Below, piece after piece: positions 4,991-52,068 of a stretch of DNA of 64,000 bases. The position numbers were made by a program, and so were the translations under genes. The notes below the pieces were generated by a model. It worked only from the letters and a program-made list of their open reading frames with translations, was not told the DNA's origin and ran no database searches. The first letter of the stretch is position 1; the number at the start of each line of letters is the position of its first letter. Source of the stretch: an uncultured Verrucomicrobiota bacterium (GTDB lineage Bacteria > Verrucomicrobiota > Verrucomicrobiia > Limisphaerales > UBA9464). Location: positions 1-64,000 of the forward strand of contig CAIWAH010000376.1 in the NCBI GenBank assembly GCA_903910585.1, read 5' to 3'.

Positions 4991-5646
4991 TGGTAGCCCT
5001 GCTGGATGATGGCCTGTGGTTTCCGGATCCGCGGAAAGCCCGCTCCGACGGCTTGGTGGCGGTGGGAGGCGACCTGTCTGTGGAGCGGTTGTTGCTGGCA
5101 TATCGCTGCGGCGTGTTTCCGTGGAGTGCGGAACCCATCACCTGGTGGTCCCCGAGTCCGCGCGCCATTTTTGACCTGGACCACATCCACATTTCCCGAA
5201 GTTTGGCGCGAACGTTGCGTAAAGGTTCGTTCGAAGTAACTTATGATGAGGATTTTGAGGGGGTGATCCGGGGGTGCGCCGATGCTCCGCGAAGGGAAGG
5301 TCAGACTTGGATTTCCCCGGAGTTCATCGCGGCCTACACCCGTCTCCATTACGCGGGACACGCCCATTCCGTGGAAGTCTGGCACGAAGGCCAGTTGGCC
5401 GGAGGGATTTACGGGGTGGCCGTGGGCGGGTTGTTTGCCGGTGAGTCGATGTTCCACCGGGTCACCGATGCCTCCAAGATCGCCTTGGTCCACTGCGCCC
5501 AACGCCTGCGCGAACGGCGGTTCACGCTGTTTGACACCCAGATGGTGACCAATGTCACCTCGGCCCTGGGCGCCTTTGAAATCGGCCGCAACGAATATCT
5601 GACCCGCCTCTCCAGCGCGGTGTTCCGGAACTGCGACTTCGTGTGA
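4990..5646 (+). CDS. aat: Leucyl/phenylalanyl-tRNA-protein transferase
   Basis: A 218-residue enzyme that transfers Leu or Phe from aminoacyl-tRNA to proteins with N-terminal Arg or Lys, creating bacterial N-degrons for ClpS/ClpAP. Family signatures are clear: LVAVGGDLSVERLLLAY.CGVFPW near the N-terminus, ITWWSPSPRAIF, SVEVWHEGQLAGGIYGVAVGGLFAGESMF in the acetyltransferase-like core, and FDTQMVTNVTSALGAFEIGR near the C-terminus. Length matches the family. The ATG overlaps the stop of the preceding DUF2017-like gene (ATGA-type overlap). clpS and clpA are not in the window. Confidence 0.96.
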   Translation: MVALLDDGLWFPDPRKARSDGLVAVGGDLSVERLLLAYRCGVFPWSAEPITWWSPSPRAIFDLDHIHISRSLARTLRKGSFEVTYDEDFEGVIRGCADAPRREGQTWISPEFIAAYTRLHYAGHAHSVEVWHEGQLAGGIYGVAVGGLFAGESMFHRVTDASKIALVHCAQRLRERRFTLFDTQMVTNVTSALGAFEIGRNEYLTRLSSAVFRNCDFV

Positions 5647-45737: not shown

Positions 45738-48700
45738 TCATTGATACACTCCAAACCATCGCTGGCTTGCGTTCGCGGAGCCGGTGACTTCGAGTGCATT
45801 GGTTCCGTCGGGCTTCAAGAGGTTCGCGACGACTTCCAGTTCAAGCACGCCGTTGCTGTCCTGGCCGCCGTTTTCGCGGACGAGGTAGCGCAGCACCGCG
45901 CGGCCGTCGGCGCTGCGCCAGATCGCGTCGTCGAGGGCGACGTTGAAGTCGAGCAGAGGCATGCCGTTGAGCCGGAGCGTGAACTTGCCCGCCGGCTGTG
46001 ACACGAAGCCCATCCCGGCGGCGAAGCGCAGGAGCGCCGTTTTGCGGGAGCCGGCCGGTGCATCGAAGCGGACCGTCAGTCGTGACCGGCCATCGGTCTG
46101 CCGGCAGTAGTGCAGCGGCAGGGTGCCGAGCCAGGAGGCGTAGGGCAGGGGATCGTAGGGCGACTCCAGCGCGGTGATCCTGACCGGCCGCAGACTGGCG
46201 AATTGGCGTCGCGCTTCGGCGGCCTGCTCGGCGCCCGCGCTGCCGAAGGCGGCCGGGGTGGACTTGATCCAGGCGATCAGGTCCGCGAGGTCGGCGGGCG
46301 TGAGTCCCTGCTCCAGGCCCTCGGGCATGAGCGAGTGTGCGTTGGGCGTGAGGCCGGCGAGGTCACCGCGACGGAGCGATTCCGTCTGGCCGCCCGGTTG
46401 AAGCAGCTTCAGGCCGGTGGCCGATTCGTCCCGCACGATGCCCGTGAGCGCACGGCCATCCTTGAGTTCGGCGGTCCACGCGAGGAATCGCGGCTCGATG
46501 GCGGCGTTGGGATTGAGGATGGCGGTGAGGAAATCGCCGACCGGTTTGCCCCGGAACGGCGCGAGGTCCGGTCCCACGTCGTAACCGTGGCCGCGCAGCC
46601 GGTGACAGCTCGCGCAAAGGCGGTCGAAGTGACCGGCACCCCGGGTCGGTTCGCCGGACAGGGGCGTGACCTCGGTGAACTTGGCTACGAGGGCGGCGCG
46701 GTCATTCGTCGTGGCGGGAAACAGCACGGACGCCTTTTCACGGATGGCAGCATTCGCATGTTGGCGGAGTTGCTGGCGCTGGGCCGGGGAAATCTCCGCG
46801 GGCGCGACGGTGCCGGCGGCGGCGGCCGCCAGCAGCGGCAGCGTCCAAACCTCCCGGCCGAGCAGCAGGCCGACTAGTTCGGCGCGCTGGCCGGCCGGGC
46901 GTTGCGGCCAGCCGGCCAGCAACTGGGCGGCGAGCTCCGGCGCTTCCTGCCGGCGCAACCCTGCGAGCAGCGACTGCTGGACGGCTGGGGGCAAGTCAAC
47001 CGTGAGGAGGGAAACGAGCTCTGCGCGTCGCTCGCTGCTGCTGCGCGCGGACTCGGCGAGCAGCGTGACGGCGGCGGCCCGGATGCGGTCCGGTTGCGTG
47101 GTGTCGGTCGCCAAGGCCCGGCCGCGATCGGCGAAACTCCGCCGCCAAGCCGCGAGCACCGGCCCGGCAGCTGGATCGGCTTCCAGCGTGGCGGAGAGCC
47201 CGGGTCGGGATTGCAGGGCCGCGAGCAGGCTGAGCGCTTCCGCGGTGCGCTCGGGCGAACCTGCCGGATCGGGTGCTGCGGGCAGCCAGCGGGCGAGTGC
47301 GGGAGCTTGGTCGGCAGCGATGAACGTCGCGAGCGCGGCGTCACGCAACGCGGCGAGCGCCGGATCTGTCTCGGGAGCCAGCGCAGCGGCGAACGATTCC
47401 GGAGCGGCCAGGGCGGAGCTCAGGATCGCCGCACGGTGCCACGGGCTGGCGGCGTCGCGGCGGGCGAGGGCGACCAGCGCGGGACCGACGGAAGGTTCGT
47501 GATATTCGCCGAGCGAGAGCGCGAGCTGGTAGCGGACGCGGGCGTCAGGGTCGTTGGTGAGTCCGGCCACGGTGCGAAGCCGCGCTTCGGGTTCGGCCAA
47601 GCGAACGGCGACACGCCGGACCTTTGGCTCGCGATCCCGGAGGCTGGTGATCAGAGTTTCGTCTGTCAGCGCGCTCAATTGGGCGAGCACAGCCAACGAC
47701 TGGCCCCGGCTGGCGGGATGACGGGAGGTGGTCGCCACACGCCCGAGAACAGAAGTGGCTGCTTTCAGCATTGTCTGCGCACCCACTTCACCCCGGCCCT
47801 CTCCCCCCGCTAAGGCGGGCGGAGAGAGAGAAACTACTTCGCCGGATGGCTTCACCGACGAGACTTGCCGGAGCAATTCAGTGTTGGTCGAGGCGGCTGC
47901 ATGGTTCTGGACGAGCCACCGATGCGCGAGGTCACGTTCGACACCGTTGGGCGAGTCCAGCACTTCGGCGAGTTGAGGGGGAGATGGCTTGGTCAAGTCG
48001 CGGATGGGGCGCGGCCTCTGACCGGTCGGAAACACCCGCCAGATGCGGCCCAGGTTCGCCCCGGCGCGCGGATCGAGTTCCTTGAGCCGTTCGGCGGGAA
48101 TCCACTTCGGATGCTCCACGACGAAGCGGTAGAAATCCACCACCCAGAGCGCGCCGTCGGGGCCGGTGCGGACCTCGACGGGCCGGAACCAATTGTCGGT
48201 GCTGGCGAGGAACTCCGAGGCCGTCTCGTCCACCGCGCGATGCGTCTTGAAGCTGAGGCCATCAGCTTCGAGCACCGCGCGGCGGACGAGGTTGTGGACC
48301 GGTTCACAGACAAAGGCGTTGCCTGCAAATTCGGGCCCGAGCAGTTCGTCGCGGTAGATTTCCGGGCCGCAGGCGCTGGTGAGGCGGTTGGCGGCGTGCG
48401 GATCGTTGAAGCGGGTCAGCGTGCGGCTGGCCGGATAGACGCGGCCGATGTCCTCGCCGTTTACGGCGGGCAAGATGATACGGGATGACGGCGGGACGAC
48501 GTGAGGATTGCGGCGGGCGTAATGGTCGGGCAGCGGGAAGTGCCAGAGCAAGGTGCTGTTGTCCTGGCCGAACCATTCGCCGAAATCGTCACGGACGCGG
48601 CCCTGCTGGCTCACACCCGCGAGCGGTTCGAACTCGCCGGTGTCGGGCTTGAAGCGGAAGTCGCGGTTGGAGCAGTCGTAGGTCTTCCCAGTTTGCGCGA

Positions 48701-50702
48701 CCGTGATCTTGCCGCCGAACAGACCGCCGGAACCATAAACCCAGCCGTCGAGGCCCCAGCGCATGCCGTTCACGCGGGCCTGGAAATTGTGCGTGGCGAA
48801 GCCGGTGAGGAGCTTGGCGGCGTGCCAGCCCTGCTTGGGTAGTAGGACAGGCGCCTCGCCTGTCTCAAGTGGTTCGGGTGCCCCCGCCCGAACATTGCCA
48901 GGTTCGACAGGCGAGGGCGCCTGTCGGACAGAGACAGCCGGGGGCGGCTGTCCCACTACCTGGCCGCCTTCGGTAACCAATGGACGGATTAACCACACGT
49001 CTGGCGCGGCGCAGACGATGACCCCGTCGCGCCACGTCATCAGTCCAGTGGGAAAGGGAAGTCCGTCGGCCACGAGTTCAGCGCGGTCGAAGCGGCCATC
49101 GCCGTTCGTGTCGGTCAGCACCTTGATGCGTCCGCCGGGCTGGCCCTGGCCGTCGAGGCCGCTGGGGTAGTCGCGCATTTCACAGACCCACAGCCGGCCG
49201 TCGGCACCGAAGTCGATGGCAACAGGCGATTCGATGAGCGGTTCGCTGGCGACCAGTTCGATGTCTATGCCGGCACGGAGTCGGAACGCGGCCTTGGCTT
49301 CCGCCGGTGATTTGGCCGGCGGATTCTCGGCGCGCTTCTGGTCGAACAGGAACGAAGCGGGCAACTGCTCCCGCACGGTGCGGACGATCAGGTCTTCGGT
49401 CTCGGGCGCGAGCTGCTGCGGGCGGTCGTAATACCAGAGCGAGGTTTCCGCCTCGTAGCCGCCTTCGCTCAGGATGCGGCGCGAAGGGATGTAGCAGGGC
49501 ACGTCGTTGGCGTAGGCATTGACCCAGAGGCGGGAAGCGTCCAGTTCGCGTTTCAGGCGCAGCGAGTAGTCCACGACCACTTCGCCCCCGAGGAACACCA
49601 TCGCCAGCTGGTCCCCGAAGCGCCACGTCTGGACCGGATAGGGCAGGGTGGGCGCAGGCGCCTCGCCGCGGTCCAGGCGGGCGAGCCACTTGCGGGCGTG
49701 GTAGCCGACGATGCCGGAGTTGGTGGCGCGGGTTGCCCACTGGGCGCGGGTGAAGTGCGGTTGGAACGGGAGTTGAACGGTTTGCAGACGGCACGTCGGC
49801 GCATTGGTCAGCTCGGTGAGCGTGGTCGCGAGCAGGCGGTTCACCTCGGCGGCAAGGGCGGTTCCATGCTTCTCCACCAGTGCCAATGTGCCGCGGGGAT
49901 CGGGATTGGCATCGGCACCGGCACCGATGGCAACTAGGGCCACGATGCCGGGATGGTCATGCTCCAGCGCCTGCGCGGCAACGCCGGCCCAGTCTCCGTG
50001 CACGGCGTTCAATTCACCTCCGAGGGTCGTGCAGTGACAGGCGTAGCTGGTGAACACGGCCCGGAGAATTCCATCGGGTGAAGTCACCCGTAGCAGCGGC
50101 AGCGCATGGTCCACTGGGCCGCCGGCAGTGCGCCGATTCTTGGCGAAGCCAACGGAACCTTGGCCCCAGGCGAGGCGAGCGGGCCGGCGATCTTCGAGGG
50201 CCCGGGCTGCCGCCAGTTCCAGTTGGTCGATGAGGAAATCGGTGTAGCGGGAAATTCGCTCCAGATTTTCGGCGCTTTGGTCGGCGGCGAAGATGTTGGG
50301 CGCAGCCCCGCGAAGACAGGGGGCGCTGTGGGTATGGGTGACGCTCAACGCAATGCCTTCTGGCGAAATCCCAAACCTCAGCTGGAGTCGTTGGCGGACC
50401 TCCTCGGTTACCTCTGCCGGCAGGATGCAGTTGTCTAGCGTGAGGAGCAGCGCGGTTTGTGGGCCTTCTCCGATTGCCAGAGCTCGGGCGTGAATCCGTT
50501 GGACGATGTTGGTCGGTGCCGGCAACTGGGCCCGGGCGGCATAACCCATCAATCGGACGGGATGAGTCGGCGAAACGTCCACCCGGGCGACTCCGACCAT
50601 CGGCAAGCCGGGATGGCGTGGCCAAATTGCACAACCGAGCAGACACAGGAACAGGGCGGCACCCAGCCAAATGCCGAAAGGGGGACGGGCTGACTTGGTC
50701 AT
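45738..50702 (-). CDS. Giant lipoprotein: ceramidase-like + PVC dehydrogenase propeller + HEAT + haem c
   Basis: A 1654-residue protein. The N-terminal lipobox LFLCLLGC suggests a lipoprotein. Residues about 30-440 resemble neutral/alkaline ceramidases (VGVARVDVSPTHPVRLMGYA, SVTHTHSAPC, CHCTTLGGELNAVHGDWAGV). From about 465, a PVC-type membrane-bound dehydrogenase N-terminal propeller follows (GIDIELVASEPLIESPVAID, FGADGRLWVCEMRDYPSG, DTNGDGRFDRA). HEAT-like repeats span about 960-1330. A C-terminal haem domain has LCASCHRLRGHGYDVGP (C1363, C1366, H1367) and ILNPNAAIEPRFLAWT. The final 200 residues are beta-rich. In PVC relatives these parts are usually separate proteins. Two in-frame palindromic elements lie inside. 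It likely acts in the periplasm; the substrate is unknown. Confidence 0.85.
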   Translation of the reverse strand: MTKSARPPFGIWLGAALFLCLLGCAIWPRHPGLPMVGVARVDVSPTHPVRLMGYAARAQLPAPTNIVQRIHARALAIGEGPQTALLLTLDNCILPAEVTEEVRQRLQLRFGISPEGIALSVTHTHSAPCLRGAAPNIFAADQSAENLERISRYTDFLIDQLELAAARALEDRRPARLAWGQGSVGFAKNRRTAGGPVDHALPLLRVTSPDGILRAVFTSYACHCTTLGGELNAVHGDWAGVAAQALEHDHPGIVALVAIGAGADANPDPRGTLALVEKHGTALAAEVNRLLATTLTELTNAPTCRLQTVQLPFQPHFTRAQWATRATNSGIVGYHARKWLARLDRGEAPAPTLPYPVQTWRFGDQLAMVFLGGEVVVDYSLRLKRELDASRLWVNAYANDVPCYIPSRRILSEGGYEAETSLWYYDRPQQLAPETEDLIVRTVREQLPASFLFDQKRAENPPAKSPAEAKAAFRLRAGIDIELVASEPLIESPVAIDFGADGRLWVCEMRDYPSGLDGQGQPGGRIKVLTDTNGDGRFDRAELVADGLPFPTGLMTWRDGVIVCAAPDVWLIRPLVTEGGQVVGQPPPAVSVRQAPSPVEPGNVRAGAPEPLETGEAPVLLPKQGWHAAKLLTGFATHNFQARVNGMRWGLDGWVYGSGGLFGGKITVAQTGKTYDCSNRDFRFKPDTGEFEPLAGVSQQGRVRDDFGEWFGQDNSTLLWHFPLPDHYARRNPHVVPPSSRIILPAVNGEDIGRVYPASRTLTRFNDPHAANRLTSACGPEIYRDELLGPEFAGNAFVCEPVHNLVRRAVLEADGLSFKTHRAVDETASEFLASTDNWFRPVEVRTGPDGALWVVDFYRFVVEHPKWIPAERLKELDPRAGANLGRIWRVFPTGQRPRPIRDLTKPSPPQLAEVLDSPNGVERDLAHRWLVQNHAAASTNTELLRQVSSVKPSGEVVSLSPPALAGGEGRGEVGAQTMLKAATSVLGRVATTSRHPASRGQSLAVLAQLSALTDETLITSLRDREPKVRRVAVRLAEPEARLRTVAGLTNDPDARVRYQLALSLGEYHEPSVGPALVALARRDAASPWHRAAILSSALAAPESFAAALAPETDPALAALRDAALATFIAADQAPALARWLPAAPDPAGSPERTAEALSLLAALQSRPGLSATLEADPAAGPVLAAWRRSFADRGRALATDTTQPDRIRAAAVTLLAESARSSSERRAELVSLLTVDLPPAVQQSLLAGLRRQEAPELAAQLLAGWPQRPAGQRAELVGLLLGREVWTLPLLAAAAAGTVAPAEISPAQRQQLRQHANAAIREKASVLFPATTNDRAALVAKFTEVTPLSGEPTRGAGHFDRLCASCHRLRGHGYDVGPDLAPFRGKPVGDFLTAILNPNAAIEPRFLAWTAELKDGRALTGIVRDESATGLKLLQPGGQTESLRRGDLAGLTPNAHSLMPEGLEQGLTPADLADLIAWIKSTPAAFGSAGAEQAAEARRQFASLRPVRITALESPYDPLPYASWLGTLPLHYCRQTDGRSRLTVRFDAPAGSRKTALLRFAAGMGFVSQPAGKFTLRLNGMPLLDFNVALDDAIWRSADGRAVLRYLVRENGGQDSNGVLELEVVANLLKPDGTNALEVTGSANASQRWFGVYQ
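47799..47826. repeat. In-frame palindromic repeat encoding SLSPPALAGGEGRGE
   Basis: The stem CTCTCC-CC-CCGC / GCGG-GC-GGAGAG with a TAAG loop lies inside the HEAT region of the large fusion gene (about residues 955-975). The encoded peptide SLSPPALAGGEGRGEVG resembles the 'LSPxGGEGRGE' peptide that arises when a widespread dispersed palindrome is read through in frame. It interrupts otherwise helical sequence. Confidence 0.7.
48842..48959. repeat. In-frame cluster of four consecutive hairpins (118 bp)
   Basis: Four hairpins follow one another: GACAGGCG/CGCCTGTC (48846-48864), GTTCGGG/CCCGAAC (48872-48893), CGACAGGCG/CGCCTGTCG (48905-48926) and GACAGCCG/CGGCTGTC (48933-48952). GTAG and CTAC flank the whole. 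Arms are perfect. The block lies in the propeller part of the large fusion gene and encodes a proline-rich, low-complexity stretch (about residues 581-622, including GQPPPAVSVRQAPSPVEPG) between conserved propeller segments, without breaking the frame. Confidence 0.85.
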
Positions 50703-50814
50703 GCCGCAGGTTGGTTGGGTATTGGGCGACAGGGAAGCGTCAAGCGGCCGAGTTTGGCCAGCCTTCCGATGCGCGCTCGACGCGTCCGCCGAGTGAACTA
50801 GAGTTGGCCCCGAC

Positions 50815-52068
50815 ATGTCTGCGCCTCTGCCGTCCGAAACCAACGGGATCTCCGTCCCAAGAAAGGTGAACTTGCGTCGTCCCGACGTGATGGAGGCGGT
50901 TTCCGCCCAGGTGGTGGCCCACTACCGGAGCGAATTGGTGGAACGTATCCGTGCCAACGGCGGCGTGATTTCCCAAGGAGAGCTCACGGTCAAGTTGGCG
51001 AAGGAGTTTGGCTTTTGCTACGGCGTCGAACGGGCCATCGACCTTGCCTACGCGGCGAGGAGGGTGTTTCCCGAGCCAACCCGGATTTTCCTGCTGGGCG
51101 AGATCATCCACAACCCCGAGGTGAACGACCAAATCCGGAACTTGGGAATCGTCTCAATTCCACCGAAGCCAACCGATGACGAATTGTCGGCGTTGGACCT
51201 GACCGCGGACGACGTGGTGATTATTCCGGCGTTCGGAACCGAAGTCGCCACCCGGCGCCGTTTGGAGGCGATCGGGTGCCAGACCGTGGACACGACCTGC
51301 GGCGACGTGATGAGCGTGTGGAAACGGGTCCGGCAGTATAGCAAGGACGGGGTCACCAGCATCATCCACGGTAAGGCCAAGCACGAGGAAACGAAGGCGA
51401 CCACTTCACAGGCGACAGCCAACGGAACCGGTCACTATCTGGTGGTCTTCAACCTCGCCGAGACCGATTATGTCTGTGACTACGTGGTGAATGGCGGCGA
51501 CCGGCAGGAATTCCTCCAGCGGTTCAAAGGCGCCCATTCCCCCGGCTTTGACCCGGACCTCCATCTTCGGGCGGTGGGTGTGGCCAACCAGACGACGATG
51601 CTGCGCGGCGAAACCGAGGAGGTTCAGCGCCGGTTTCGGTCGGCGATGGAGCGGCGCTTCGGAGCAGAGCGACTGCAAGAGCATTTCCGTGTGTTCGACA
51701 CGATCTGCGGGGCGACCCAGGACCGGCAGGATGCATTGGAAAAGATGCTCCGGGAACCGATGGATTTGCTGATCGTCGTGGGCGGATACAACTCCTCAAA
51801 CACGTCCCACCTGGCGGAAATGGGTGAGAAGGTTCTGCCCACCTACTTCATCAAGAACGCGGCAAAGATGGAGTCAGCCGGCCGCATTGAGCACTGGGAC
51901 CAGCACATCGCGGAAGAGGTTCAGACAGCCAACTGGTTTCCGACCTCGGGGCGGGTCACCGTCGGAGTTACCGCCGGAGCAAGCTGCCCGAACAACCTGA
52001 TCGAAGACACCATCAAGCGACTCTTCGAACTGCGGGACATTCAGCTGCCCCTAAGCAAAACCTCGTAG
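50815..52068 (+). CDS. ispH: 4-hydroxy-3-methylbut-2-enyl diphosphate reductase (long form)
   Basis: A 417-residue iron-sulfur enzyme for the last step of the MEP isoprenoid pathway, making IPP and DMAPP. The three cluster cysteines are in KEFGFCYGVERAID, VDTTCGDVMSVWKR and FDTICGATQDRQDALE. The ending GVTAGASCPNNLIEDTIKRL is also typical. Length and the extended N-terminus and insert match the roughly 400-residue plant/cyanobacterial-type IspH, not the roughly 310-residue E. coli type. It diverges from the large lipoprotein gene and converges with the TPR-like gene (13-base gap). Its product feeds the squalene/phytoene synthase at the window end. Confidence 0.96.
   Translation: MSAPLPSETNGISVPRKVNLRRPDVMEAVSAQVVAHYRSELVERIRANGGVISQGELTVKLAKEFGFCYGVERAIDLAYAARRVFPEPTRIFLLGEIIHNPEVNDQIRNLGIVSIPPKPTDDELSALDLTADDVVIIPAFGTEVATRRRLEAIGCQTVDTTCGDVMSVWKRVRQYSKDGVTSIIHGKAKHEETKATTSQATANGTGHYLVVFNLAETDYVCDYVVNGGDRQEFLQRFKGAHSPGFDPDLHLRAVGVANQTTMLRGETEEVQRRFRSAMERRFGAERLQEHFRVFDTICGATQDRQDALEKMLREPMDLLIVVGGYNSSNTSHLAEMGEKVLPTYFIKNAAKMESAGRIEHWDQHIAEEVQTANWFPTSGRVTVGVTAGASCPNNLIEDTIKRLFELRDIQLPLSKTS

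Follow-up and report, generated by a model that had tools for sequence, protein, structure and literature searches.

The window examined here is a stretch of 64,000 nucleotides from an uncultured member of the Verrucomicrobiota. Its minus strand carries an open reading frame of 1701 residues with a TTG start (45738-50843), made up of a ceramidase-like N-terminus, a DUF7133 propeller, HEAT and cytochrome c, all recognized by Pfam (the first as an alkaline ceramidase N-terminus). Forty codons of this frame (48840-48959, minus strand; VVGQPPPAVSVRQAPSPVEPGNVRAGAPEPLETGEAPVLL) come from a palindromic element and encode residues 629-668, VVGQPPPAV...EAPVLL, shortly ahead of the main DUF7133 match (677-939, Pfam). 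The coding strand of the element is free of stops only in the host gene's own phase. The initial annotation had placed the insert at residues 581-622 of a 1654-residue protein; the in-frame insertion holds, and the difference in numbering reflects another choice of start codon. Homologues of the surrounding 600 residues were found by tblastn in 54 of 58 relatives, with the matches interrupted at the insert, and alignment shows the position to be a loop of variable length. The comparison of orthologues that had been suggested was carried out, and the 40 residues are missing from all the aligned homologues; homologues carrying the insert peptide were sought by tblastn and alignment and none was found, which argues against ancestral protein sequence. 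No nucleotide-level empty site was found for the window copy, the congener match there being a 47% homologue. The same frame holds a second GC-rich, repeat-like in-frame segment at 47781-47837 (minus strand; VVSLSPPALAGGEGRGEVG), and similar peptides (APTLSPGERENHPP, PLPAGERQGESEP) occur inside the DnaE of locus L172.

The whole element spans 121 bp (48839-48959), as delimited by half-element matches (48839-48893, plus strand; 48905-48959, minus strand), and has the order GTAG-A-B-B'-A'-CTAC, in which B' and A' are inverted. A left-end GTAG tag (48839-48842, plus strand) is followed by hairpin A (GACAGGCG-CCT-CGCCTGTC, 48846-48864, plus strand) and hairpin B (GTTCGGG...CCCGAAC, 48872-48893, plus strand), then, given as plus-strand letters, by B' (CGACAGGCG-AGGG-CGCCTGTCG, 48905-48926, minus strand) and A' (GACAGCCG-GGGG-CGGCTGTC, 48933-48952, minus strand); the right-end CTAC (48956-48959, minus strand) is the GTAG tag of the opposite strand. 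The four hairpins first noticed are thus all present and perfect, with GTAG/CTAC at both outer ends of the element. Of the limits originally given, 48842-48959, the end stands, since CTAC ends at 48959, and the start moves three bases earlier to the GTAG at 48839. The description as an in-frame palindromic element of compound architecture was right, the insert comprising 40 stop-free codons and A-B-B'-A' hairpins. Hairpins of the form GACAGSCG..CGSCTGTC occur three times in the window against 0.01 expected from shuffles. The two strands, each taken as single-stranded DNA, have folding energies of -41.9 and -40.8 kcal/mol (z -6.7 and -7.4), and no shuffle matched them.

The element belongs to a dispersed family that is nearly restricted to the genus. 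A DNA search with the 118-bp query gave 20 matches in the window's own genome. The genome-wide palindrome search proposed in the initial annotation succeeded in part: exact copies (GACAGGCG-N4-CGCCTGTC) are few (four places) because the stems vary, so that a covariance model was needed, whereas copies with variable stems are dispersed and some are in frame. This model of the 55-nt, two-hairpin half-element (R1) gave 24 matches in the own genome, 14 in the congener G001 and, in the other 56 relatives, three in G050, two in G020, one each in G042 and G055 and none in the remainder. At least eight inverted pairs, plus then minus, lie in the own genome on C376, C152, C107, C303, C148, C141, C216, and C150, mostly spaced by 2 or 11-12 nt. 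The stems vary among copies yet remain paired in 98.0% of cells, with changes on both sides in 8 of 17 pairs, a count from nine sequences partly picked for looking paired and so supportive only. Copies are in frame in ValRS (both congeners), CysRS, AlaRS, NIR_SIR (sulfite reductase), and a class-III aminotransferase, and probably in further genes, and others are intergenic. At the sites compared, local divergence of the loops obscures the exact junctions and with them any target-site duplication.

In G001, half-elements of this family (contig C53, 4497-4552, plus strand, and 5181-5236, minus strand) flank an intact REP-associated tyrosine transposase (RAYT). It lies within one open frame, of 1358 residues in the stretch read and 1495 in the contig, which has Pfam matches to UDPGP and Y1_Tnp and holds another four-hairpin element of the window family. 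This RAYT is in frame inside its host ORF, with neither a stop codon nor an ATG start. Because the same tandem-hairpin ends flank it, the window block is very probably a compound GTAG-type REP, a transposase-less derivative of a RAYT-flanking unit that was mobilized by a RAYT; judged from its sequence, it looks like the left and right arms of such a unit minus the transposase. By comparison with characterized REPtrons, a RAYT of the C53 type (TnpA-REP, an HUH/Y1 transposase) would bind hairpins with the GTAG tag in their single-stranded form and mobilize the transposase-less element in trans. The element would have entered the host gene at the variable, tolerant loop in the sole phase that reads through, and may have been retained because it added exactly 40 codons without a stop in the gene's phase; the host protein would still be made and work. 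The low copy number leaves present-day mobility a presumption.

The own MAG, which is 89% complete, yielded no RAYT with window-family ends. Its Y1_Tnp genes on C230, C390, and C398 are flanked by CCCAGGGCAACGCCCTGGG-type or CCGGGGGC-type hairpins and that on C411 by yet another hairpin, and because these flanks differ from the window family none is an obvious mate. Four Y1_Tnp loci of this genome (L029, L030, L031, and L032) have differing hairpin families (CCCAGGGCAACGCCCTGGG, CCGGGGGC, CGCGGCTC), and several REPtron types therefore coexist in it.

When the C53 RAYT was used as a query against 145 relatives, the most similar matches lay almost all in frames of ~650-1560 residues and most of the more distant ones in frames of 200-400 residues, the long frames, as read, having host protein on both sides. 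The hosts are UDPGP-like proteins (L104, L154, L156, L161), DinG-type helicases (L155, L157, L158, L160), PriA (L162, L168), SNF2 (L163 and the own genome's L166), DnaE (L159, L170, L172), N6-methylases, ClpB and, for a different RAYT group, AlaRS (L176-L178). The own-genome SNF2 case (L033/L166, G000:C46) is a RAYT in frame in a 1466-residue helicase ORF, flanked by GTAGGGCAGGCTGNCAGCCTGCCC pairs and with a third in-frame pair farther along the same ORF. An independent set of 80 RAYT loci came from named genomes, mostly Verrucomicrobiota or Kiritimatiellales, with lone MAGs under other phylum labels that may be mis-binned; more than 120 residues are open on both sides of the RAYT at 27 of the 80, and most of the remainder have short ends. 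Pfam places host domains in RAYT ORFs (CarB, PriA, LeuRS, HsdR, Eco57I, PolyA polymerase, MmeI, adenosine deaminase, and others), the RAYT lying within or between them. In the embedded RAYTs, HVH (columns 105-107 of A3) and Y165 are invariant, PF01797 (Y1_Tnp) is matched above cut-off, and profile A3 gives a weak match to E. coli TnpA-REP 4er8 (E 0.0094). Of 43 cases, 33 have hairpins, often with GTAG/CTAC, on both sides of the RAYT and 42 have one on the right; a left control stretch has one in 11 of 36.

Several of these host genes are available with and without the insertion. The SNF2 site is occupied in the own genome, where two matches flank the RAYT in its long frame, and in G022, and is contiguous in G001 (93% identity, 1100 aa) and ~40 relatives; the UDPGP-like site is occupied in G001 and contiguous in the own genome (90%, 1081 aa) and more than 40 relatives. 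The two congeners are therefore reciprocally occupied and empty. A DinG site is occupied in G129, G125, G100, and G082 and contiguous in ~20 genomes. At the SNF2 site the own-genome and G022 RAYTs differ (57% identical), as do their REPs, and the right ends fall at the same codon. At three sites in the UDPGP-like gene the congeners show net length differences of 765, 84, and 108 nt, each divisible by 3, and a 108-nt REP pair makes a precise difference between G001:C53 and G081:C6, whose host sequences are 92-93% identical. By BLAST boundaries the SNF2 insert measures 797 nt; local indels account for this length not being divisible by 3, and the frame is open. L104 (G001:C53) and L154 (G081:C6) share 89-93% identity in both host protein and RAYT, although G081 belongs to another family of the order, reflecting horizontal transfer or a mis-binned contig.

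We tentatively propose, with a probability of about 0.45, that some RAYT transposons form a class whose members reside in frame within host proteins. The transposase would have lost its own start and stop, it would be made only within the host polypeptide, and selection on the host gene, often an essential one, would protect its frame, much as for an intein but without protein splicing; the window element would be a transposase-less offshoot. The RAYT-host fusions would then be translated and their RAYTs able to move.

Almost as probable, the two accounts being near even, is that embedded RAYTs and REPs are survivors of random insertion, of which only the rare in-frame, stop-free events in tolerant loops are seen, with no special lifestyle. 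The insertion sites are indeed variable loops, GC-richness explains the open phase of the element, and the same broad family includes many RAYTs encoded by ordinary genes that stand alone. Survivorship sits less easily with the tree of 45 rows, on which embedded RAYTs cluster, requiring 4 changes against 14.6 in shuffles, at least two of them forced by well-supported branches, and with the finding of diverged RAYTs at the same site of the same gene. Embedded RAYTs also lack a stop and usually an ATG, unlike their stand-alone relatives: an in-frame ATG lies 6-29 codons ahead of LPHW in 9 of 45 embedded rows (two loci being entered twice, L189=L160 and L192=L163) versus 28 of 44 stand-alone ones (Fisher p 4e-5), and in about half of the embedded rows ATG, GTG, and TTG are all missing there. 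The moving form itself therefore seems to be stop-less. A distant RAYT group, which the tree places outside the main embedded one, is likewise in frame, in AlaRS (L176-L178) and PriA (L179), suggesting more than one origin of embedding.

It is unlikely that the hairpins were placed by regulatory selection to act on RNA, as a terminator, stability element or attenuator. Their fold is very stable and transcription of intragenic copies is to be expected, but copies occupy intergenic positions as well as genes unrelated to one another, and their ends are shared with a transposase; such effects, possible as side effects of REPs, leave the spread unexplained. That the long fused frames are artefacts of assembly or binning is improbable in the extreme, even though most genomes are metagenome assemblies and several taxon labels (e.g., Gallionellaceae, Flavobacteriales) could reflect mis-binned contigs, because many independent assemblies show the same architecture, the AlaRS case of G144 is in a single-contig genome, frames and Pfam domains run on both sides within one contig, and the congeners have reciprocal empty sites. 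Least credible is a reading of the 40 residues as a normal low-complexity part of the protein, with incidental palindromes: the segment does lie in a loop of low conservation, but no homologue has it, and the same palindromic GTAG/CTAC DNA is found again in other genes, and in other phases, at many loci unrelated to this one.

Few bacterial repeats are as common as REP elements, and embedding bears on the question of how RAYTs persist at low copy number without being lost. If a RAYT is carried in frame in an essential protein, any frameshift or stop within it would harm the host gene, and long persistence would then have an explanation. Many proteins of Verrucomicrobiota and other bacteria would then hold a transposase insert that is taken for an error in annotation; one large survey of TnpA-Y1 left out proteins that were longer than expected, regarding them as fusions or misannotations (PMC6006769). 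REPs inside genes are already known, whereas we found no description of RAYTs in frame within host proteins in open-licence PMC papers. The initial annotation was made from the sequence of the window only, so that the sister-genome RAYT with the same ends and its in-frame embedding were beyond its view. The wider lesson, as far as the reading frames tell, is that the in-frame insertion can be the transposase itself, lacking a stop codon of its own and, in most cases, an ATG.

Among known systems, inteins are also in frame, recur at sites in replication and metabolic genes and have relatives with empty sites, but here the insert is a transposase and Pfam matched no Hint/intein splicing domain in 23 embedded ORFs. 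The likeness to Rickettsia elements that had been pointed out holds for behaviour, RPEs also being palindromic in-frame insertions in many proteins, and not for membership: the ends here are GTAG/CTAC and there is a RAYT, whereas Rickettsia conorii RPEs end in CGTC, a repeat class with no associated transposase, GTAG being the tag of RAYT-associated REPs (PMC3733652). As in MITEs, the termini are those of an autonomous relative, since the A-B ends flank the RAYT in G001. The four-hairpin unit works like a REPIN, in which inverted REPs form the apparent mobile unit and a RAYT is the presumed mover in trans (Bertels and Rainey 2011, PMC3116915), but it differs from the two-REP form in having two hairpins per arm and in being intragenic and in frame, with mobility here presumed. 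The embedded RAYTs share HUH and tyrosine motifs, the Y1_Tnp match and GTAG hairpins on both sides with the RAYTs of REPtrons (PMC8266576, PMC6006769), but have no stop of their own, mostly no ATG, and continue into host protein on both sides. The closest match is the GTAG-REP superfamily, including the intragenic REPs described in 2013 from, among others, Opitutus terrae, whose clusters encode 43-82 residues with a bias to repair genes (PMC3733652). Shared with it are a GTAG tag beside a palindromic stem (8-9 bp, within the 5-13 bp of the superfamily), covarying subfamilies, dispersed copies often in inverted pairs, dimers or clusters inside ORFs that encode tens of residues, enrichment in DNA repair and tRNA-related genes and the association with RAYTs; what sets the window family apart is its fixed four-hairpin A-B-B'-A' unit and a matching RAYT unit that is itself in frame in a host gene.
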